A stretch of 45,654 nt of DNA from the NCBI GenBank assembly GCA_030950585.1, contig JAUZRG010000092.1, positions 1 through 45,654 of the forward strand. Reading direction: 5' to 3'. The notes under the pieces are model-generated. The model saw only the letters and a list, made by a program, of their open reading frames with translations. It was not told the DNA's origin and made no database searches. Both the position numbers and the translations under genes were made by a program. Source of the stretch: Mariprofundaceae bacterium (GTDB lineage: Bacteria > Pseudomonadota > Zetaproteobacteria > Mariprofundales > Mariprofundaceae). This document shows, in pieces, positions 7,394-20,391 of the stretch; position 1 is the stretch's first letter, and each line of letters opens with the position of its first letter.

Positions 7394-10300
7394 TTACTCA
7401 CGGCGTTGGCCTGCAAATCTAACAAGTGCAATCATCAAGAAAGCCAATAACCAAAACCATGTATTGTTGTTGGACTCTGCGGGTAATAAACAACCTTTAC
7501 CGGGTGGTTGGATGAACGGTGCAGCACCGACCACAGGGGTGACGGGGATATTGTCGATGGCAACGGAGACAGGATCAACAATCACACCATTGGCCACACC
7601 ATCTAAATCGGTGAGTGGATCGCCATCGGTCAAGGTCATGTCGATGGTGTTGCCATTAACGGTGACCCATGTTGATGCAGGTAGGGCAATATAGTTACCA
7701 CCCATATCGACTTTGAATAACTTCACGGTGCCTGCAAGTGGGGAGGAGAAGGTCAAGCGGATGGTGGTGCTTTGACCCACTGCAACCGTGGTTGCATACG
7801 ATAGGTTGCCGTAAGGGAAGCTATAGGTGCTGATGGGTGCGTTTACACCCAGTGGGGCGTAAGCCACTTGGGTTAATGTTTGGCCTGCACTGTAAATATC
7901 CACGGTGCCATTGACGATATTCATGCCTTTGGCAATGGCTGCGTTGTTGGCATTGTTGCCAGCTTCCAATACATCGGGGAGACCATCTAAATCGGTGTCG
8001 GTGGGGGCGTTAACATTGCCAATTTCAACCCAATCCAGAATGCCATCACCATCACTGTCTAAGGTGTTGCTGTAAGGATCAATGCCGATTGCAAGTGATT
8101 GGGAAAAGCTTAAGCCTGTACCTGAAGGTGCAAGTATGTTGGCTGCTCCAGCGATAAAGGCTGAGACGGTCACGGTGCTAGTGGCTGAGCCTGTGTTGTT
8201 GGCTGAATCGGTGGCCGCATAGGTCACGGTGGTTGTGCCCACAGGGAAGGTGGCTGGCGCATTGTGGGTCACCGTGGTGTAAGGATCGACATCATCCACA
8301 GCTGTAGCACTGGCTAAGATGAGTTTCAAAATAGCGAGCGTTGCGGCTGTACCATTGGCGGAACCTGCACTCACCGTGATGTTGTTGGGTGCTGTCACCA
8401 CTGGCGGGGTTTGATTGATGAAAGGATCAACACGAATATTGGCTGTTGCGCTGGATGCATTTTGTTGATTATCCACACTGTTGAATGTAATCACGGTTGT
8501 GCCCACAACAAAAAGTTGGGGGGCATTGTTGCTGAGGCTTGGCTTGGGATCCATGTTGTCCACAGTGGTGGCTGCATTTAAAAAAGCGGCAATGGTTGGG
8601 TTGGTGATGCTGGTACCTGTGGCTGTGGTGGAGGCAACATAAATATCAACAGGTAAGTTGATGGTTGGCGCAAACACATCCATATAAGGTGAGATGACAA
8701 CCGTACCCACGGCAACGCCAGTGTTGCCCGCAATATCGGTGGCATAAAAATCAATGGGTGTCGCTCCGACTTGGAAAAGGGTCGGTGGGTTGATGGCATT
8801 AACGGTGACAGAAGGATCAAGGTTGTCGGTGGCTGTACCGGCGTTGATAAAGGCCGCAATGCTCACATGTGTGGCGGGTGTACCTGCGATTGAAACCGCT
8901 GGCAGTGTTAAGGTATTGGGTGCTTGAACCACAGGTGCGATGGTATCGACAAAAGCCAATACTGTGACCGTGGCGGGTAGTAAGCTTTGGTTGGTCATGG
9001 CATCGGTGGCATAAAAATCAACGATGGTGGCTCCGATAGGAAAACGCACAGGTGCGGTGTTCATCACTGTCAGGTTGCCATCGACATTATCCAAGGCAGT
9101 CGCCGTATTAAAAAAGGCGGTGAGCGAGGCATCATTGGCTAAGGTGCCATAAGAATCAATGGCAGCAATGGTGATGTTGGCGGGCACGGTCAAGACAGGT
9201 GCAACATGATCGATATAAGCAAGCACAGTCACATTGGCTGTGGCACTGCTTAGGTTGTTGGCTGCATCGGTGGCTTGGAAAGTCACAGCGGTGGTGCTTC
9301 CTGCTGCAAAGAGGGTGGGTGCATTATAAGGCGAGGCTGCCAAGGCACCATCGACATTATCAAGCGCGCTTGCGCCATTGAAAAAGGCGGTAATATAAGG
9401 ATCGGTCGCAAGGGTTCCTGTGGGAGATGCTGCGGTGACGCTAATGGCTTGGGGCAAGGTTAATATGGGAGCAATCACATCAATATAGGCTGCAATGGTG
9501 ATATTGGCGGTTGCTGTGCCGAGATTGCCCACCGCATCGGTGGCATGAAAGCTGATCGGTGTAACCGTACCAGCAGCAAACAAGGTGGGAGCATTGTATG
9601 GCGAAGCAGCCAAGACACCATCAATATTATCAAGTGCAGTGGCAGCATTTAAAAAGGTTGTGATATAAGGGTCTGTTGCCAGTGTGCCTGTTGGGTTTGT
9701 GGCTGCGACCGTGATCGCTAGCGGGGGACTGACAACAGGGGCTCTGGTGTCGGAACTCACAACCACCAGACTGCTTGCAAAACCAGCGTTGCCAGTTTTG
9801 TCGGTGGCGATGAAATTCACTAACGTGCTGCCAATCGGAAAAAGAGCTGGGGCATTATAAGGTGAAACGGCTAAACCAATATCGACATCATCGAGGGCAC
9901 TGGCTGTTGCAAAACGCGCGACAATACGGGGATCTGTGGCACTCAAACCATTCGTGTTGTTCAAGGTAACATAAAGATCAATGGGGGCCGTGACCACGGG
10001 AGCGGTGACATCAATCCAGCGGGTGACATCTAACGGGTAGGCATCAATAGTGAGGGCACTAGCAGCGATTTGTGCTGTGCTGGCATTGGGGTTCCAGTTA
10101 TCAGGGTGACCATCGGCATCGGTATCAAGTGAGGCAGCTGGATCAAGGTTAAAGGCATCGACATGGGTTAAGCCTGTGGTTGAGTTCGCGGCACTCATGC
10201 CAAAAGTCCAGTTATTGGGAAAATGATCATTGTCGCTATCCAAACTGGCTGCGATATCGGTGGGAAAGGCATCGCTGGCATCAGATACTTGATCACCATC

Positions 10301-12391
10301 GGTGTCGATGTTCGTGGATGCTGTGCCTGTGAGATAGGTTTGGATGGTATAAGCTGTATTGGCAGCTTTGGTGGTGTTGGATACCGCAATGAAATACGTG
10401 CCTGCACTTGGGGTTAAAATACTGATGCGTTCCATACCATCGCTGCGTGCTGACGTTAGGGTGTAGGCATCTTGGGCAGGGCGACTGCCAAATTTAGCAC
10501 TTAAATCAATATTGGCTGCGGATGTGGTGGCAATCACGAGTTCGGGCATATTGGTAGGAACTTGCACATGAAAATAATGCACATCGTCTTGGCCATCGAG
10601 TTGAATGGTATTTTGTGTCACACGGCCATCGCTCATTAAACCACCGATTTCAATTTCAAATGGGCGTGTGACGGTGTAATTGGTGGCATTGATGGTGAGG
10701 CTAAGGGGTAGGCGATAATGCTGGCTTAAGTTGGCGGCTAAACTCAAATTGAAAGCTGTCGCTGAAGCTGTGTTGGCACCTGTGGCTAAATTGGGATAAG
10801 TCACGGTGGGATTGTTGATGGTCACATTTAGGTCTGCACTGCTTAAGGTCGCTGAAATCACCGTGGTATTTTGCCAGATGTTTTCAAGGTCAACCCATAA
10901 ATTAACTGTTTCACCTGCATCCAATTGGCCATTGTTGTTGGCAGCCAAATCATCAATGCGGACTTGGCGAATGACGAGCACAGGTTGCGTGACCACACTT
11001 AAAGCGCCTGTGGCATCGGCATGGCCACCTGTGGCTGTGAGGCCTTTGCGTGATGTCGTGAGTTGATTGGCGGCTAAGCCTGCGGCGGCCATGATACGGC
11101 CTTTCATTTCTTGGGCTGTGGCGGCGGGATTAAAGGTTTTGATCAAGCCAGCAATACCTGCCACATAAGGTGCAGACATTGAGCTACCATTCATAAAACC
11201 ATAGCTTAAACCGTTTTGTTTGTTGTTGGCATAGAGTGCAGAAGTCGCGGGGTGCAGGGTGGTGTAGATAGACGTTCCTGGTGCGGCAAGGTCAACAGAA
11301 GAAAGACCAAATTGGCTCCATGTGCTTAAATTGTTGTTGGCTGTAGAAGCGGCAACACTCAAGATATTGTTTAAATCATAAGAAGAAGGGTAATCGGCCG
11401 TATCATCATTGTTGTTCTCATTGTTGCCAGCAGCGGCAACAACTAAAATACCTGCGGCTTGCAAGCGTGTGAAGGCAGCGAGTTCAGCTTGAGAAAACTG
11501 TCCTCCACCAAAACTAATATTAACAATGGTGACCCCTTGTGCGATGGCATAATCAATGGCGGCAATTTCACTGGCAACATCCAGACTGATGCGCAAAGGC
11601 ATGATGCGTGTTGTCCAGTTTACGCCTGCAATACCAAGACCATTATTACCCACAGCACCAATCACACCAGCCACAGCCGTACCATGACCATCGCCATAAA
11701 TATCGACACCAGAAGGATCAGCATCATTGGCATAAAAATCCCAGCCATGAATATCATCAATAAAGCCATTCAGATCATTATCAAGGCCATCACCAGCAAC
11801 TTCAGTGGGACTCAGCCAAATGTTGGCGGCTAAATCAGGGTGAAGCATATCAACACCATCATCTAAAACGGCAATGACGACTGCTGTACTACCTGTGTTG
11901 TTGGCCCAAGCGGTGGGCAACTTCATATCCACACCCACAGTGCCATTAAATGCTGCGCCGACTTCACTATAGGCATCATTGATCAATTGGCCTGTGTTGG
12001 ATAAGGCCCATTGTTGGTTAAATAAGGGGTCAGTAGGCAATAGGCTAGGGTAGCGTTGGTAATTGGGTTCGGCATAGCTGATATTGCCTAAGGCAATCAG
12101 CTGATTAATAATCGTTTGAAGGTTGCTATTGGCAGGAAGTTTCCATTTTTCTAAGCCTGTGACACTTGAAAGAACACTCGCATTGGCTTGCAGGGTAGTC
12201 TGCAATAAAAGACGTTGTTGTGCGGTTGCTTGAACATTAAACTGTACCAGTAATTCGTCTGGAACATAGTTTTGAACATTGTTGAGCACAGCAGCATGTG
12301 TTTGGTAGGCGAATAAAAAGCAGAAAAGAATAGAAAAACAAATGTTTTTTGTTGTGAGTAATAGAGATGAAGCAGCTTGCCACGGTCGCAT
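7394..12391 (-). CDS. Secreted subtilisin-like (S8) serine protease with HYR-like repeats and C-terminal anchor
   Basis: A 1665-residue exported protein. Order: signal peptide (1-33, ending THA); inhibitory propeptide with a PDELLVQF start; S8 catalytic domain with Asp near 177 (AVLDDGVD), His near 236 (DGHGTAVAG) and Ser near 402 (NGSSMSAPY); a pre-peptidase-like beta domain around 590-690; DxDxD calcium-type repeats around 695-790; seven HYR-like beta-sandwich repeats of about 88 residues (about 790-1412); a thrombospondin-3-like DSDGDGILD segment; a choice-of-anchor-U-like domain (LTDGDPLTDLDGVANGVIVDP); then GKGCLLPAE, one transmembrane helix and RRE. That tail is a Cys-containing sorting signal of the CTERM kind, so the protein is probably surface-displayed. 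A GGGG ribosome site precedes the ATG. Confidence 0.88.
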   Translation of the reverse strand: MRPWQAASSLLLTTKNICFSILFCFLFAYQTHAAVLNNVQNYVPDELLVQFNVQATAQQRLLLQTTLQANASVLSSVTGLEKWKLPANSNLQTIINQLIALGNISYAEPNYQRYPSLLPTDPLFNQQWALSNTGQLINDAYSEVGAAFNGTVGVDMKLPTAWANNTGSTAVVIAVLDDGVDMLHPDLAANIWLSPTEVAGDGLDNDLNGFIDDIHGWDFYANDADPSGVDIYGDGHGTAVAGVIGAVGNNGLGIAGVNWTTRIMPLRISLDVASEIAAIDYAIAQGVTIVNISFGGGQFSQAELAAFTRLQAAGILVVAAAGNNENNNDDTADYPSSYDLNNILSVAASTANNNLSTWSQFGLSSVDLAAPGTSIYTTLHPATSALYANNKQNGLSYGFMNGSSMSAPYVAGIAGLIKTFNPAATAQEMKGRIMAAAGLAANQLTTSRKGLTATGGHADATGALSVVTQPVLVIRQVRIDDLAANNNGQLDAGETVNLWVDLENIWQNTTVISATLSSADLNVTINNPTVTYPNLATGANTASATAFNLSLAANLSQHYRLPLSLTINATNYTVTRPFEIEIGGLMSDGRVTQNTIQLDGQDDVHYFHVQVPTNMPELVIATTSAANIDLSAKFGSRPAQDAYTLTSARSDGMERISILTPSAGTYFIAVSNTTKAANTAYTIQTYLTGTASTNIDTDGDQVSDASDAFPTDIAASLDSDNDHFPNNWTFGMSAANSTTGLTHVDAFNLDPAASLDTDADGHPDNWNPNASTAQIAASALTIDAYPLDVTRWIDVTAPVVTAPIDLYVTLNNTNGLSATDPRIVARFATASALDDVDIGLAVSPYNAPALFPIGSTLVNFIATDKTGNAGFASSLVVVSSDTRAPVVSPPLAITVAATNPTGTLATDPYITTFLNAATALDNIDGVLAASPYNAPTLFAAGTVTPISFHATDAVGNLGTATANITIAAYIDVIAPILTLPQAISVTAASPTGTLATDPYITAFFNGASALDNVDGALAASPYNAPTLFAAGSTTAVTFQATDAANNLSSATANVTVLAYIDHVAPVLTVPANITIAAIDSYGTLANDASLTAFFNTATALDNVDGNLTVMNTAPVRFPIGATIVDFYATDAMTNQSLLPATVTVLAFVDTIAPVVQAPNTLTLPAVSIAGTPATHVSIAAFINAGTATDNLDPSVTVNAINPPTLFQVGATPIDFYATDIAGNTGVAVGTVVISPYMDVFAPTINLPVDIYVASTTATGTSITNPTIAAFLNAATTVDNMDPKPSLSNNAPQLFVVGTTVITFNSVDNQQNASSATANIRVDPFINQTPPVVTAPNNITVSAGSANGTAATLAILKLILASATAVDDVDPYTTVTHNAPATFPVGTTTVTYAATDSANNTGSATSTVTVSAFIAGAANILAPSGTGLSFSQSLAIGIDPYSNTLDSDGDGILDWVEIGNVNAPTDTDLDGLPDVLEAGNNANNAAIAKGMNIVNGTVDIYSAGQTLTQVAYAPLGVNAPISTYSFPYGNLSYATTVAVGQSTTIRLTFSSPLAGTVKLFKVDMGGNYIALPASTWVTVNGNTIDMTLTDGDPLTDLDGVANGVIVDPVSVAIDNIPVTPVVGAAPFIQPPGKGCLLPAESNNNTWFWLLAFLMIALVRFAGQRRE
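8150..10010 (-). repeat. Seven tandem HYR-like repeat units within the protease gene
   Basis: Seven units of roughly 260-265 bp encode beta-sandwich repeats. Each begins with a [AP]PVVxxP-like strand and contains a TALDNxD segment and a FxATDxxGN segment. Units 2 and 3 are nearly identical in protein (TGTLATDPYIT..., SPYNAPTLFAAG) and clearly similar in DNA (around 9310-9440 and 9590-9700), pointing to recent duplication. Such units act as stalks or adhesive modules on secreted bacterial proteins. Confidence 0.8.
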
Positions 12392-13458: not shown

Positions 13459-14238
13459 CTAATCTTCCTGAAACTTTTGATCATAAGCCGCTTGCCACTC
13501 TTGGGTGCTGCTACCTGTTTCTAGCTCGATACCTATTAATTGCGTTAAGGCTTGATCAAACACGTCTTGATTGAATACGGCTTGTTCTCTTGCTTGCAAA
13601 AGAATGGGGAAGTCAATTTGGTGCTGACCGTGTGTTGCCAGTGTTCCTGCGAGTTTTGCAGCGGTTAAATGATTGGCTTCTTGCACCAATTTCCGAATAT
13701 TCTTCAGGTCAATAGGTTCTTGTTTTAATGCATGAATGATGCTGATCCCTGGGCCAGATAAGCCCCATGATATCACATAATCTGAGTCTGTGCGTGTGGC
13801 ATGAATCCAGCCAGAATAAGCGATCAATAGACACAAGGCTGTCATGCCAATACTGGAAACGATGCTATAGTGAAATATATGATTTTGATCCCAACGTTGG
13901 CGTGTTTTTTTGCGTAATAACTGTATTGAAAGTTGCAGTGGACCTAATAAAAGGAAGAAGGAAAGAAAGGGCGCAACACCAAGTGCAATTTCGAGGGTAA
14001 GCATACTCAAAGCCAGCACAACGGATAACCAGCCGCGGACGAGAAGTCTGGGTTGAAGTGGGTCTTGACTGGAAATGATGGATGCAGCAACGAACCAAAA
14101 AATGGGAAAAAGTAACCAGACATGTACAGGTGGAAGGACATAATCCACATAAGCCAAGGTGCAGGTTCCACAGCCAAAAGCCGAACCAGGGGAGGTAAGT
14201 AATAAAAAACATAGGAAAATGTATATCTGTTTGGGCAT
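13459..14238 (-). CDS. Inner-membrane protein of unknown function (third gene of exported cassette)
   Basis: A 259-residue protein without a family I recognise. It has a signal peptide or first helix (PKQIYIFLCFLLLTSPGSA), then a CGTC motif (thiol pair) at the exported face, and about four more transmembrane helices over residues 30-155. A soluble helical C-terminal part of about 100 residues follows, with repeated LxxAxxxA patterns. The ATG at 14238 has AAGGAT seven bases upstream and puts the signal peptide at the N-terminus. An earlier in-frame start at 14268 adds ten unlikely residues. It follows the 1754-residue gene after 40 bases. The CGTC could be redox-active or metal-binding; this is untested. 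Confidence 0.65.
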   Translation of the reverse strand: MPKQIYIFLCFLLLTSPGSAFGCGTCTLAYVDYVLPPVHVWLLFPIFWFVAASIISSQDPLQPRLLVRGWLSVVLALSMLTLEIALGVAPFLSFFLLLGPLQLSIQLLRKKTRQRWDQNHIFHYSIVSSIGMTALCLLIAYSGWIHATRTDSDYVISWGLSGPGISIIHALKQEPIDLKNIRKLVQEANHLTAAKLAGTLATHGQHQIDFPILLQAREQAVFNQDVFDQALTQLIGIELETGSSTQEWQAAYDQKFQED

Positions 14239-14278
14239 GATCACTATCCTTGGTGTGCTGTTGAGCATGCACTGTGCT

Positions 14279-17200
14279 TTATTGCATGGGAACTTTCAAT
14301 CGGTAGTGATCATAAAAGTCGAGTTCACCTTTTCTAAAGTCACGCAAGGCACGACCTTCTGAGAAATGCCAAAAAAGTTGTAGGGCGATGCTGCTTTGAT
14401 TTTGGTTAAAGTCATGCGTGAAGCTTAATACCCATGTTAATATGTCAAGATTATCATGCCAAGTTAAGCCATTTAGCGTCACATTAATTTGATGGTTGGT
14501 ATAGGATTTGGCTCTGTTTTTATCTGCACGAAACCAACGCCATTGATACTGTGCTTTGGCTTGCATATCCCCTAAAATTTGATGCCACGACAAACGCAAG
14601 CCCAAGTGATCAGGGTTGAGCAGAAAAAGGTTTTCATTGGAAGTGATAAAGGCATGTGCTTTGAACTGGCTATCCAACCAAGGTTGATAGCGCCAAGTAT
14701 CGGATAACTTCAGGCCATAGAGATGATTGGCTTTGTAGAGGCTAAACACATCACGGTCACTATTGGGGCGGGGTTGATTGAGGTGGCTGAGGTAACGGCC
14801 AAAGAGACTGAACTTAATGCGTTGGCTGTTGTTTTCATCCCATTTTTGTTGATAACTCAAGCCGAGTTGAGTGGTGGCTGACCATGCGGGTTGTTGAAAG
14901 AAACTTGTGCCGCGTAATTCAAGTTGGACGGGCCATGCCAATGCAGTGTAGTTCAATTGACCTTTAAGGCCGAGCACCGAAGCTGTACTATGAGGTCGAA
15001 TAAGCATGGTTTCTTTTTGGTATAAGCGGCGATCCTCATCATAAAAACGATGGCTTAATGATAGCTCTGGAAAAGAGCCCCCTTTGTTTTTCTGGGTGAT
15101 ATCTTCTTGTTGTAGGTTTTGATTGATCCATGCAAGACCTAGACTCCAAGTGCCATCTTCTTGGCCGCCCAATTCAAAATTATTTTGAGGGATGTGCTGT
15201 TGTTGCGTGCTCTTTTTGAGTTTAAGCAAGTTTTGCGCGGCTTGAGGGCTTGGTGGGGCTTTGATGATGTGGATGCTGGTGGGGTTTGTCTCAACTTTTG
15301 GCATCAATTGATAAATACGATACAAGGCATGATCGGATGTGGTGCTGAGTTCTATGTCGTGCCAACCTTCAGACACGGCATGGTATTGGCTATGGGTTCG
15401 ACCTTTTTTGTAAAGGTCTATGCGTAACCATTGCGGGCCGCGCATATTGAGATGAATGGACTCATCGGCTGTGGCAACATGGTAAAGGCGTTCATATTGA
15501 TTGGGAATAAGTTTTAGTTGGCCTTTTTGTTGCTCATATACGGTGATTTGAGAAAATTGATTGGGTATAGGGTTGTGGATACCGACCCGAAAAGATTGCT
15601 CTCCTGTGGGAATATGAATGCGCTGACTGCCGTGCTGAAGTACTTTGTCGTTGTCATGGATATCATGGTATTCTAAATCTTGCGCTTGTGCTGGGATAAA
15701 TTCAGGCTGTGTATGCTGACTTTTAACGATGAATGTTTTGGCTCGGTAATTGCGCATGGCAAAGCCTTGTTGGGCATAGCCAAAAATCATAAAGTGTTGA
15801 TCAGAACTCACAGGCATCAACACTTTGCGAATCGCTAAGGCTGGGCTTTCAGGTTTCCAGCCTTGATGGCTGATGCGATGTAAGCCTGCACTTTGTTGCA
15901 CATGTGAAAGTCGCTTCCAATGCCAAGTTTGCTTGAGCCTAGAGATGAGTAGGCTGGACTCATGAAAGTTTGGGTAAGATTTTGCCAAAGCCAAGGCTTG
16001 AACACGTTCTTTTTCTTGTTCGCTTGATTGATGTTCGATACGCCACAGTAATTCGGTTATTTGTTGGCGAATATCGGTTTTATGCGCATGGATGACAGCA
16101 CCATGCTGCCATATGACACCTTCTTGTGTGGGTTCTGGTTTGAGATATACCCGATGACCTGCTTGTGCTTTGTTAGCCGCATGCTTGAGCAAGTCTTGAA
16201 ATGGTGTTTGGGCTGAGGGCTTGGCTATGGCAAGAGGAGATATGATTTCTGTGCTGGGTAATAAAGTGATGCAAGCAGTATGCACACAGGGTTGCCGTGC
16301 TGTGTTCGTCGGGGTTTGCAGAGCTTGTTGTAATGTCTGGCGCGAAAGTGGTGCCAAGACTGAGAGGGGAATATCCGCTTGTTGGCTGAAGATGCCGATC
16401 AACATATCATGTTGTTGGGCTTGCACACGAATCTGATGTAAGCCTGCACCAACATCATAATATATGTGCTCTTGTTGCCCGACTTGTGTTTGAGGGGAGC
16501 CGATGACGTTGAAGAGTTGGCTGGCTTGGTTGTTGGCAATCAGGACATGCGTTTGTTGGTCTTTTTCTTCAATGCTTAACCAATCATTGAGTGGCTCTTG
16601 TTGCGCCTGTGTGTGAATGGGTCTTATTTTTAACCAAAGACGTTTGGGACCCATCACCGTAAAAATCAATGGCGTTTGGCTAGTGGCGCGCACGTTGCTT
16701 ATGATTTTGCCTGTGAGCTTGTTTTGCATGCTCTGTGTGCCTGCAAAACCTTCTATGATGTTGTGTTCTTCTTTCCAGACCTTGAGATCTGGCTGTGACC
16801 ATGTCTCCCATTGTTCTAATATTTTATAGCTGCTTTTCAAATGCGCATGTTGCATTTCATGGCTAATCTTTTGACCTGACTTGAGACTTGTGATGAATGC
16901 TTGACCATCGCGCCCTGCTTGCTGCCAAAATTGAATGGCTAAGTCATACTTTCCTTGGTCTTGAGCGCGCAGTCCACGCCACAATGCCGCATTGTGTGCG
17001 GGCATACGGTTTAGGGTGTCGTTAAAGACTTGCCACCAATGCAGGTGCCAAGCGGCACGCATCAGTTGATCTGTTTGACGTTGGGCGGCTGGTAAGGCCA
17101 GTTGCAGCATCATAACTTTGCGGTATTGACCTTGGTTGAGCCACGCCTGACTCAATGCCAAAGCATGTTGAATACTAGGGTCTCGCATGAAAGCCACCGC

Positions 17201-19543
17201 ACTCAGGCGTGTGAGGGCAGCGGGTTGATGTTGATAGCGTTGTTGTAATAAGCTCAAGGCAGCCTGTTGCTCTGCTTCATTGCCGTATAAGAAGAGACCC
17301 TTCATGCGTTTTTCTGCCAAATAAGGTTCATTGAGGCGTTGCAAGAGGTGAATGCTTTTACGCTCAGCTTCTAGCTTGTATTGCGTGGTTTTTGCTAATT
17401 TCCGCCAGTTTTCAAGGGCTAATAGCCATTGATTATCCTGTTCAAGTTCGAGGGCTTGTTGATAAAGGTGATTCCAATCCATGCGAGCGATTATGGTGGG
17501 TCGTGGTGGCGCGATATGTCTTTGAAATGCCTTATTCTGTTCTTGCAGTTCATGGCCAAGCATGAACCATGCATTGTATAAATCAGATTCAGCAGCATGG
17601 CTGGGCTTTGTGTTTTGTTGTAAAAAAGATGCAAAGGTAGAAAGCCCTTGTTTAGTTAGCTGACTCATGGCTTCTCGGTAGTTTGATTCAGACATCTGAA
17701 AAGCTTTGCTTACACGGTATTGGATGGCCACACGCGCTGCCTTGTCTTGTGGTGACCATAACTGAATGCGTTGTACATGAGGCGGCAATGCCACTTCAAT
17801 GATGGCAACTTCTCTTAGGGGTAGCGGTGTTCTTTTTGAGCCAAATGGAGCGGCTAGGGTGGAGGGGGTTGAAAATTGTTTGGCCAAAATGGCAAGACCA
17901 GCTTCACTCATACTGGGTTGGTGTGCATAGCTGGGCGCTTGGGGGTCTAAATGCAATGCTCTGCTTTCTTGGTCATCAAGGCGTAAAAAATATTGATGAT
18001 CTTGTGGGCTGTGTGGGTTTATTTCGACCACGATACGTAAAACCGACATGGCCATACGCTGGCCTAGCTCGTAGCTCTGCGCGTTCTTTTGGGTGCTTGA
18101 TAGCGGGTAAAAGGTGCTTTTATTCAAACGTTTTAAAAGGTCGTCATGTTGGCGCATATCCACCACAAGATTTTGTTCTTCTCGTTTCAGAGGAGCCAAG
18201 TGGGTAGTATGAAAATAAGCTGTTTCCACTTTGCCTGTGGGGTTAGTCTGAGGGTGTAAGGTGCGATAAAAGCTATGCCGACCAAACAATTGTTGTGCCA
18301 CCGTTTGGATTTGTGGGGCACCTTGGCGAGCCTTGGCAGCTTCTTGCATGATTTGGGCAGCGATTAATGCACCGTCGCTGTAGCGGTTGTTGCGCACAAG
18401 GTGAAAGGCCGCTTGTTCGCGTTGTGTGGCCTGCTTTGGGGCATGATTGCTTAATTGAGTGAGCGCATTTTGATGAAGTCGCCAATGTGAGGCGAGGGCA
18501 TCGCTTGTGCTGTATGGATCGTGAAAGGTTTCGTTTAAGGCTGGGGGTGCATTGAGGTCAGGAAACAACCATGCATCATCTTCTTGTTTTAATAAGCGCA
18601 ATAACACGGCTTGGTTGGATGCAATGCCTAGTTGGTGTTTCCCTTTGGGTAATTCAAAAAAAGATTGTTGCTGTTCGCCTGTTAAGATGACTTTGTTATT
18701 GGCATAGAGAACTTTGATGCGTTCAGAGGCTGTGGATAAATCCAAGACACGCCAAGGCTTTTGATCAAGGTATAAGGTGATGCGGTAGTCTTGATCAATG
18801 CCTGCTTCGTGGTCGGAAAAGACCAAACGACTTTGCAGCATAAAGCGGCTTCCGTGTTGGGAGATAGTTTTTTTTTCGTGTGCATTGAGTCGCCAAAAGC
18901 TTTGTTGTTTCTTATTGAACTGCTCTTCAAGTAAAAGGGATGATGAGTCGAGCGGAATGAGTTCGCGATAAAGCTGTTGCTGACGATCAAGGATGGGGCG
19001 TGATATAAAGAGAGCAATCTCAATGCCTTTGGCGGCTGTTTTTGGGCAATGAATTTTGGCGATCCAATCGTGTTGGCTGTTGTATTGGTAGTGTGAATCG
19101 TGGTCTTGATTCTGGTCTTGATTCTGGTCTTGATGCTGGGCTTGATGCTGGGCTTGATGCTGGGCTTGATGCTGGGCTTGATGCTGGGCTTGGAGCTTGA
19201 TAAAGAGTGATTGACCATGTGAGGCAAAGACTTGGATGTCTGCGTCTTGAAGCTGCTCATCTTCATGGTGCAGGCGTAACATTTGTTGTTTGGCTAAGCG
19301 CACATAAGTGGATTCACCTGCTTCTAGGTGGATGGTGTGCATGCCCCATGCTGTATTGTATGTTGGTTCCTGTTGACTGCTCAAAGCTTGTTGATTTTCA
19401 ATATTATCCCAACGCCATGCAGGGCCTTGGCGTGTTTCAAGCAAGTGTAGTTGCAGTTCATCCAGTTGGGCATAAGCGATATGACTATGGGGAAAACTAG
19501 AGCCCAACAAGAAAATAAGAATAATCCATGATTTTATAGACAT
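14279..19543 (-). CDS. Giant exported protein with TPR-like helices and predicted C-terminal beta-barrel
   Basis: A 1754-residue protein I cannot assign. A signal peptide (1-25, ending AYA) leads into beta-rich N-terminal domains interrupted by a Gln-rich QAQH/QDQN tandem repeat (about 115-147). A helical TPR-like region spans about 690-870 (LYQQALELEQDNQWLLALENW, QGQYRKVMML, QDQGKYDLAIQFW). More beta-sandwich-like segments follow to about 1460. The last about 290 residues show alternating hydrophobic/polar strands rich in Tyr, Trp and Leu, like a 12-16-strand outer-membrane barrel. TPR plus barrel recalls exopolysaccharide porins such as PgaA, BcsC or PelB, but no glycosyltransferase is nearby. 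Its start overlaps the preceding gene by ten bases. Confidence 0.65.
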   Translation of the reverse strand: MSIKSWIILIFLLGSSFPHSHIAYAQLDELQLHLLETRQGPAWRWDNIENQQALSSQQEPTYNTAWGMHTIHLEAGESTYVRLAKQQMLRLHHEDEQLQDADIQVFASHGQSLFIKLQAQHQAQHQAQHQAQHQAQHQDQNQDQNQDHDSHYQYNSQHDWIAKIHCPKTAAKGIEIALFISRPILDRQQQLYRELIPLDSSSLLLEEQFNKKQQSFWRLNAHEKKTISQHGSRFMLQSRLVFSDHEAGIDQDYRITLYLDQKPWRVLDLSTASERIKVLYANNKVILTGEQQQSFFELPKGKHQLGIASNQAVLLRLLKQEDDAWLFPDLNAPPALNETFHDPYSTSDALASHWRLHQNALTQLSNHAPKQATQREQAAFHLVRNNRYSDGALIAAQIMQEAAKARQGAPQIQTVAQQLFGRHSFYRTLHPQTNPTGKVETAYFHTTHLAPLKREEQNLVVDMRQHDDLLKRLNKSTFYPLSSTQKNAQSYELGQRMAMSVLRIVVEINPHSPQDHQYFLRLDDQESRALHLDPQAPSYAHQPSMSEAGLAILAKQFSTPSTLAAPFGSKRTPLPLREVAIIEVALPPHVQRIQLWSPQDKAARVAIQYRVSKAFQMSESNYREAMSQLTKQGLSTFASFLQQNTKPSHAAESDLYNAWFMLGHELQEQNKAFQRHIAPPRPTIIARMDWNHLYQQALELEQDNQWLLALENWRKLAKTTQYKLEAERKSIHLLQRLNEPYLAEKRMKGLFLYGNEAEQQAALSLLQQRYQHQPAALTRLSAVAFMRDPSIQHALALSQAWLNQGQYRKVMMLQLALPAAQRQTDQLMRAAWHLHWWQVFNDTLNRMPAHNAALWRGLRAQDQGKYDLAIQFWQQAGRDGQAFITSLKSGQKISHEMQHAHLKSSYKILEQWETWSQPDLKVWKEEHNIIEGFAGTQSMQNKLTGKIISNVRATSQTPLIFTVMGPKRLWLKIRPIHTQAQQEPLNDWLSIEEKDQQTHVLIANNQASQLFNVIGSPQTQVGQQEHIYYDVGAGLHQIRVQAQQHDMLIGIFSQQADIPLSVLAPLSRQTLQQALQTPTNTARQPCVHTACITLLPSTEIISPLAIAKPSAQTPFQDLLKHAANKAQAGHRVYLKPEPTQEGVIWQHGAVIHAHKTDIRQQITELLWRIEHQSSEQEKERVQALALAKSYPNFHESSLLISRLKQTWHWKRLSHVQQSAGLHRISHQGWKPESPALAIRKVLMPVSSDQHFMIFGYAQQGFAMRNYRAKTFIVKSQHTQPEFIPAQAQDLEYHDIHDNDKVLQHGSQRIHIPTGEQSFRVGIHNPIPNQFSQITVYEQQKGQLKLIPNQYERLYHVATADESIHLNMRGPQWLRIDLYKKGRTHSQYHAVSEGWHDIELSTTSDHALYRIYQLMPKVETNPTSIHIIKAPPSPQAAQNLLKLKKSTQQQHIPQNNFELGGQEDGTWSLGLAWINQNLQQEDITQKNKGGSFPELSLSHRFYDEDRRLYQKETMLIRPHSTASVLGLKGQLNYTALAWPVQLELRGTSFFQQPAWSATTQLGLSYQQKWDENNSQRIKFSLFGRYLSHLNQPRPNSDRDVFSLYKANHLYGLKLSDTWRYQPWLDSQFKAHAFITSNENLFLLNPDHLGLRLSWHQILGDMQAKAQYQWRWFRADKNRAKSYTNHQINVTLNGLTWHDNLDILTWVLSFTHDFNQNQSSIALQLFWHFSEGRALRDFRKGELDFYDHYRLKVPMQ
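19102..19197 (-). repeat. In-frame 12-bp tandem repeat, about eight units
   Basis: On the plus strand the units read GGTCTTGATTCT (two), GGTCTTGATGCT (one) and GGGCTTGATGCT (four), followed by a degenerate eighth copy. In protein the array gives QAQH units grading into QDQN units. A 12-bp period keeps the frame whatever the copy number, so the count may vary between strains. Confidence 0.9.
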
Positions 19544-20391
19544 TGTAATAACGCATGTTGCATATCGGTGTTGTGGCGCAGTGTTTTACGGGTTTCAAAA
19601 CTCATTTCTAAATGAATAAAGCTATGATGGCGTTGCTGGACGATATACTTTGCAATGACGTTGGTGGTGCCACCTAGCTCTTGCACATCAGTGGGGTAGA
19701 TTAAGATAGATTGTGTTTGATCTCTTTTGAGGCAATGCGCCAAGTTTTGCAAAGTTCGGCTGGGGTATTGTTGACCGCTACTGAGTATCATGTCGGCTTG
19801 TTGCGCGCTGATGCTTTGACGTTTTTTTTGGGAAAACCCATGCAGTTGCAAGGTTTTACCTTGCGGGTATGCTTGTATAAAAGCATGGCTAAAGGCTGTG
19901 AAGAAGGTGTTGTCTCGGTGGGCTAAGTCAGCATCAACCCTTTCAGAGTCGGCAAAGTAGTGGCGTGGCACGGTATTCCAAGCAGCTGCTTTGGCATGGC
20001 TCTTTTGAAATAGTTTTAAGGCTATGCGGCCTGTGTGCAAATCTTTGAAGGCATGCGGTGCTTGCAGAAGCAGTGCATGGTTTTCCTCTGAACGAATAGC
20101 AAAAAAACCACGACCATGATATTGATTGTTTTGTTCTTGAATGACAATGAAAGCTTGTCCTTTTTTGTGAAGGTATTTGACTTTCATACCCAAACTTTCC
20201 CATGCCTCTGGGTTGCTGTTGTTGTTTGTGAATAGGTCGAAGAAAAGCTGTGTTGCTTGTTCAACTTGGTATTGGCTGGGTTGAACAAAGACACCTTGGC
20301 GGCTTTCTTTCCAAGTTTGGTTTAAGCTATCGGCATGAACCCATGATAAAGGGCATAAACACAAGATAAGAAAACACAGTATTTGAATCAT
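19534..20391 (-). CDS. Periplasmic protein of unknown function (first gene of exported cassette)
   Basis: A 285-residue protein with a clear signal peptide (MIQILCFLILCLCPLSWVHA, then DSL). The mature part is a mixed alpha/beta domain with conserved-looking RHYFADSERVDADLAHRDN, LQLHGFSQKKR and LEMSFETRKTLR segments. The last, with its charged residues at the C-terminus, is reminiscent of hydrolases that act on peptidoglycan or poly-glutamate, but I cannot identify a family. The ATG at 20391 is chosen for the GGGGAG just upstream. An in-frame TTG six codons earlier (20409) is less likely. Its 3' end overlaps the 1754-residue gene, so they are translationally coupled. Confidence 0.65.
   Translation of the reverse strand: MIQILCFLILCLCPLSWVHADSLNQTWKESRQGVFVQPSQYQVEQATQLFFDLFTNNNSNPEAWESLGMKVKYLHKKGQAFIVIQEQNNQYHGRGFFAIRSEENHALLLQAPHAFKDLHTGRIALKLFQKSHAKAAAWNTVPRHYFADSERVDADLAHRDNTFFTAFSHAFIQAYPQGKTLQLHGFSQKKRQSISAQQADMILSSGQQYPSRTLQNLAHCLKRDQTQSILIYPTDVQELGGTTNVIAKYIVQQRHHSFIHLEMSFETRKTLRHNTDMQHALLQCL

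Follow-up and report, generated by a model that had tools for sequence, protein, structure and literature searches.

What do three closely coupled genes in a Mariprofundaceae genome encode, and with which other genes do they belong? They lie in a window of 45,654 nucleotides (the whole stretch of DNA analysed; contig JAUZRG010000092.1, assembly GCA_030950585.1). A first-pass annotation had read them as an exported three-gene cassette that could span both membranes. All three ORFs are intact and, as it described, lie close together on one strand:

20391-19534, minus strand: gene for a 285-residue predicted hydrolase (hyd)
19543-14279, minus strand: gene for a 1754-residue predicted barrel protein
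14268-13459, minus strand: gene for a 269-residue protein with five predicted transmembrane segments
14363..15151, minus strand: region coding for a predicted 14-stranded outer-membrane β-barrel (AlphaFold and PDB fold matches)
19101..19192, no strand assigned: 12-bp tandem repeat (7.7 copies, 97% match), in frame within the 1754-residue gene

The first two genes overlap by 10 nt and the third follows after a gap of 10 nt; the gene for the 269-residue protein is probably co-transcribed with the other two. An EamA transporter gene lies 44 nt beyond. Searches of Pfam and NCBIfam gave no family above cut-off for any of the three proteins, and promoter and terminator scans found sites no more numerous than in shuffled sequences.

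A predicted outer-membrane barrel and a putative periplasmic hydrolase

The 1754-residue protein is exported and has an N-terminal β-rich part, a middle of TPR-like helical repeats, a periplasmic β domain and a C-terminal barrel. AlphaFold prediction of its last 625 residues, with 58 homologs as input, gave 14 long strands between residues ~1465 and 1727 (pLDDT mostly 91 to 98, ~97). The best PDB fold matches of this region were all outer-membrane barrels (OmpG, OccAB4, AlgE, PgaA and PelBC). OmpG, which has 14 strands, matched with a TM-score by target of 0.59 to 0.67, and the PgaA barrel (4y25) with 0.48. A closed outer-membrane barrel is thus strongly supported by the model, closure being judged from the OmpG match, and the soluble fold that would have told against the first reading was not obtained.

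The same annotation had likened the protein to TPR-plus-barrel exporters. The barrel half of that plan stands; the TPR half is weakly suggested by a TPR_1 match in the window protein with an E-value of 0.89, far short of the Pfam cut-off, and by a match of the family profile to designed TPR proteins (E 2.4e-4). No Pfam or PDB-sequence match linked the protein to PgaA or PelB.

In most related operons the barrel homologs are ~1600 to 1980 residues long. In Methylococcaceae, Legionella and a Halomonas relative the protein is divided into two adjacent ORFs of ~1100 and ~740 residues (split loci L036, L037, L043, L054, L069, L074 and L081; ~830 and ~1100 residues in L069). The barrel proteins of one genus (g7) carry an inserted SPOR domain (PF05036, E 8e-8), which fits a periplasmic arm touching peptidoglycan. 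The 12-bp repeat encodes (HQAQ)n/(HQDQ)n from residue 118, near the N-terminus; it is absent from the protein's homologs and is possibly a hypervariable linker.

The 285-residue protein has a single N-terminal hydrophobic segment (residues 1 to 19), a signal peptide. Residues 22 to 285 were modelled by AlphaFold from 52 homologs with a mean pLDDT of 96. A comparison of its fold with the PDB matched zinc exopeptidases, M20- and M14-type enzymes among them, all with probabilities of 0.99 to 1.00: the DapE catalytic domain (E 2e-5), the deglutamylase CCP5, TAFI carboxypeptidase and 2odf. TM-scores to these solved structures were low (0.35 to 0.45), so the fold class is firm and the substrate is not. 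PDB sequence searches with hydrolase profiles gave no real match, and a Foldseek search against viral models gave weak matches only, the phage enzyme PghP not clearly among them.

All 52 homologs share H113, D117, R143, D155, H184, N244, E262 and R268 (precursor numbering), and N139 is kept in 51. By analogy with M14-type peptidases, we take two histidines and one acid to bind zinc, a glutamate to be the base and an arginine to hold a carboxylate. The protein is therefore predicted to be a periplasmic hydrolase of the zinc-exopeptidase fold with a conserved putative active site, and the hydrolase-type fold suspected at the outset is borne out.

A conserved operon and its partners in the same genome

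Genome contigs were scanned with a ligase profile, giving 298 loci. The best 80 were taken with up to 10 kb of sequence on either side, and their genes called with iterated profiles. The conserved order is capC-p820-hydrolase-barrel-ligase, complete in 34 of these 80 loci; many of the others lie at the end of a contig. The hydrolase and barrel genes were adjacent in all 42 loci having both, window included, so this pair survives the neighbourhood check. Barrel and ligase genes were likewise adjacent (61 of 61). Neither a glycosyltransferase nor a polysaccharide deacetylase is among the conserved operon genes.

The best 80 loci span Proteobacteria, Nitrospirae and Planctomycetes. Carriers among them include Mariprofundus, Sulfuricellaceae, Nitrosomonas, Thiomargarita, Parabeggiatoa, Crenothrix, Methylovulum, Halomonas/Vreelandella, Marinobacter, Legionella, Thiodiazotropha, Desulfocicer, Nitrospirae and Pirellulaceae. 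Operons of the Erythrobacter group (L087, L090, L097, L104, L106 and L108) have a short p820 and run capC-p820-hydrolase-ligase, with no detectable barrel.

Within the family, the 1754-residue protein is encoded in the genome under study and four others of 74, most of the family being without the barrel; relatives that carry the operon have the order response regulator, CapC-like, p820, hydrolase, barrel, ligase. A scan of 299 genomes of the phylum found barrel and full ligase together in the same six genomes. These are not six independent events, because five of the six genomes belong to one family, and four 'ligase' matches consisting of HEAT repeats only were left out of the count. The hydrolase profile matched in five of the six; in the remaining one, the barrel gene runs off the end of its contig.

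One further genome of the phylum has a lone hydrolase homolog (L110, G131:C149), with ligase, CapC and barrel absent from the stretch read; the enzyme is perhaps used there on a foreign polymer.

The 269-residue protein shows a different pattern. Its five predicted transmembrane segments and CGTC motif are present as first described, and any conservation of the motif lacks a homolog to show it: none was found in 73 other genomes of the family, 298 others of the phylum or any related operon. On sequence comparison it is an orphan outside the conserved system, its CGTC motif being without comparative support. The three genes occur together in none of the other genomes searched, the outcome that the first-pass annotation had itself named as refuting its trio. 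The cassette does not form a unit of three genes; two of its genes are parts of a larger conserved operon.

The remaining parts were found in the same genome, all intact, so that the system is divided among three contigs: the window is C205, the ligase gene is on C143, and C67 carries those for the sensor kinase, CapC and p820.

G000:C143:10627-14697: PgsB-like ligase, 44% identity
G000:C67: capC-p820, 44% identity, preceded by a CHASE2 histidine kinase gene

The initial impression that no synthase is present arose because the ligase and capC genes of this PgsB/PgsC-type pair sit on other contigs. As the parts are unlinked here, their joint function in this genome rests on the relatives, in whose operons CapC matches PF14102 (E 4e-37) and the ligase matches TIGR04012 (E 5e-62).

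The ligase (~1390 residues) has N-terminal HEAT repeats and the PgsB-type P-loop GTRGKS. That of the genome under study matches TIGR04012 (PgsB) at positions 10 to 355 of 380 (E 6.7e-56), its 189.6 bits lying just under the equivalog cut-off of 222.7. CapC (~1080 residues) matches PF14102 with 129 bits against a cut-off of 27 (E 1.4e-37) and TIGR04011 (PgsC) with 65.8 bits (E 4.5e-18), under the equivalog cut-off of 96.45. As the ligase and PgsC scores fall below these cut-offs, the monomer or linkage may differ; judged by its sequence, the ligase is homologous to PgsB, a score that does not certify the same function.

CapC also contains two domains of the hydrolase family. In the alignment, the first of these in the genome under study has both candidate zinc histidines replaced (PHS to PAS and QLHG to QIRG), and therefore probably became a binding or scaffold module. 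The p820 protein (~825 residues in relatives) is an anchored exported protein, and its hhalign comparison with the periplasmic domains of the barrel protein (70.9% probability) is suggestive only. CapA/PgsA (PF09587) was absent from all five Mariprofundaceae genomes searched, in which positive controls were detected; p820 may substitute for it.

Directly upstream of capC in the genome under study is the gene for the CHASE2 sensor histidine kinase (L028, 10964-13672), and relatives (L021 and L024) have a kinase and a receiver upstream of capC. The CHASE2 kinase is a probable regulator of the system.

Two of the contigs that carry the separated parts also encode giant exported proteins in which HYR-like segments recur:

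window 7394-12391: 1665-residue subtilisin-like exported protein with HYR-like repeats
L028 1-5199: exported protein of at least 1733 residues with HYR-like repeats

Proposed function and alternative explanations

It is likely that the window holds the hydrolase and outer-membrane exporter genes of a poly-amino-acid synthesis and export system of diderm bacteria. This reading is built on computed gene content, order, co-occurrence and folds, the conserved putative active site, and membership of the ligase and CapC families. From these we infer the glutamate monomer, the direction of transport, catalysis by the hydrolase and the periplasmic bridge.

In the proposed mechanism, the HEAT-fused PgsB-like ligase would join amino acids at the cytoplasmic face in an ATP-dependent reaction, the monomer most likely being glutamate linked via its γ-carboxyl. 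The PgsC/CapC-like protein would form the membrane complex of the synthase, from which the chain would pass to the periplasm. There a bridge may be formed by p820 together with the long periplasmic arm of the 1754-residue protein, and the chain would leave through the 14-strand barrel. The 285-residue zinc-dependent hydrolase might trim or release the chain in the periplasm. The product would be a γ-linked polyamide, most likely poly-γ-glutamate, glutamate being the likeliest monomer because the ligase is kin to PgsB. Since a polyamide rather than a polysaccharide is predicted, the absence of a glycosyltransferase is as expected. The first-pass annotation had already glimpsed an envelope-spanning plan for polymer export, and on this point it is supported.

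One alternative is polysaccharide export. The PDB matches of the barrel include the PgaA barrel, AlgE and PelBC, and these exporters are built on a TPR-plus-barrel plan. The barrel and hydrolase might then export and trim a polysaccharide in the manner of PgaA/PgaB or PelB/PelA, the likeness to PgsB/PgsC being incidental or reflecting a peptide cross-link. However, the constant partners of the barrel are a PgsB-like ligase and CapC, in an operon with neither of the polysaccharide enzymes sought, and the hydrolase has the fold of a zinc exopeptidase rather than a glycoside hydrolase. This explanation is accordingly considered unlikely. Somewhat less probable still is a system whose polyglutamate is stored inside the cell or in the periplasm, the barrel protein being a mere structural or uptake porin. 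CapB/CapC of lucinid symbionts were filed under storage compounds in one report (PMC11168628), and the encoded hydrolase could mobilise such a store. Yet a Ca. Thiodiazotropha locus (L052) is a complete operon with the barrel between hydrolase and ligase, and the invariable adjacency of barrel and ligase points to export.

Tight spacing on one strand speaks for the original proposal, a novel envelope system of three genes with the CGTC protein as a member. With that protein lacking homologs in the other phylum genomes and in related operons, and its two neighbours always in a different, larger set, this proposal retains very little credibility. The preferred reading, a poly-amino-acid export system, has a broader form that we hold only slightly more probable than its opposite: the barrel protein would be the first recognised outer-membrane exporter dedicated to a poly-amino acid, in a widespread diderm version of PgsB/PgsC with barrel, bridge and hydrolase, whose γ-polyamide would serve many environmental Gram-negative bacteria as capsule, sheath or matrix.

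Comparison with known systems

The sfz stalk cluster of Zetaproteobacteria comes from the same bacterial class and is proposed to synthesize and export an extracellular polymer; it has a family-2 glycosyltransferase (Sfz2), a BcsB-like Sfz1 and CotH proteins (PMC8250860). It was rejected as the identity of the present system, as its five components showed none of the domains described in that paper. The paper on the Favne sheath gives no gene candidates.

PgaA, PelB and AlgE(AlgK) likewise combine exported helical repeats with an outer-membrane barrel, and are linked to a synthase complex and to an enzyme that cleaves the polymer in the periplasm; the alginate and Pel systems carry a periplasmic lyase or hydrolase. 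In contrast to these, the present system shows no sequence homology in the searches made and has an amide ligase instead of a glycosyltransferase and a barrel of 14 predicted strands. The barrels of PgaA and PelB have 16.

The hydrolase shares a zinc-carboxypeptidase-like fold and an invariant His...Asp...His plus Glu and Arg with zinc exopeptidases, N-formylglutamate amidohydrolase-like folds and the phage γ-PGA hydrolase PghP, although PghP is not among its listed fold matches. It differs from zinc exopeptidases in having no Pfam family or PDB sequence match, in its HxxxD spacing and in being secreted and operon-bound.

Closest are PgsBCA/CapBCA (Bacillus, capBCA in Francisella and the Fusobacterium polymer), which share the PgsB-type ligase and PgsC/CapC, encoded in one operon in the relatives. 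Here, however, the ligase is enlarged by HEAT repeats and CapC by its two hydrolase-like domains, CapA/PgsA is missing, and p820, a periplasmic hydrolase and an outer-membrane barrel are added. The CapsuleFinder study treats CapA as accessory, detects CapB/CapC in most phyla, states that diderms require one more protein for translocation and bases its PGA model on CapABCDE alone (PMC5542703). A capBCA locus in the diderm Francisella is noted in another paper (PMC4688374). The consulted portions of the literature found, which lay outside subscription journals, describe neither a dedicated outer-membrane barrel nor the five-gene operon, and no component by which a PgsB/PgsC-type polymer crosses the diderm outer membrane.

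By supplying a barrel and a putative trimming enzyme, the conserved gene set opens such a crossing to direct tests in bacteria that can be cultured. It also challenges the view that CapB/CapC of lucinid symbionts form a storage pathway (PMC11168628). Carriers include the sheathed, filamentous and mat-forming Crenothrix, Thiomargarita, Beggiatoa relatives and Mariprofundus relatives, bacteria with little-studied envelope polymers. The ligase and CapC belong to known families, and the diderm export module is a widespread and apparently undescribed extension of the poly-γ-glutamate synthase.
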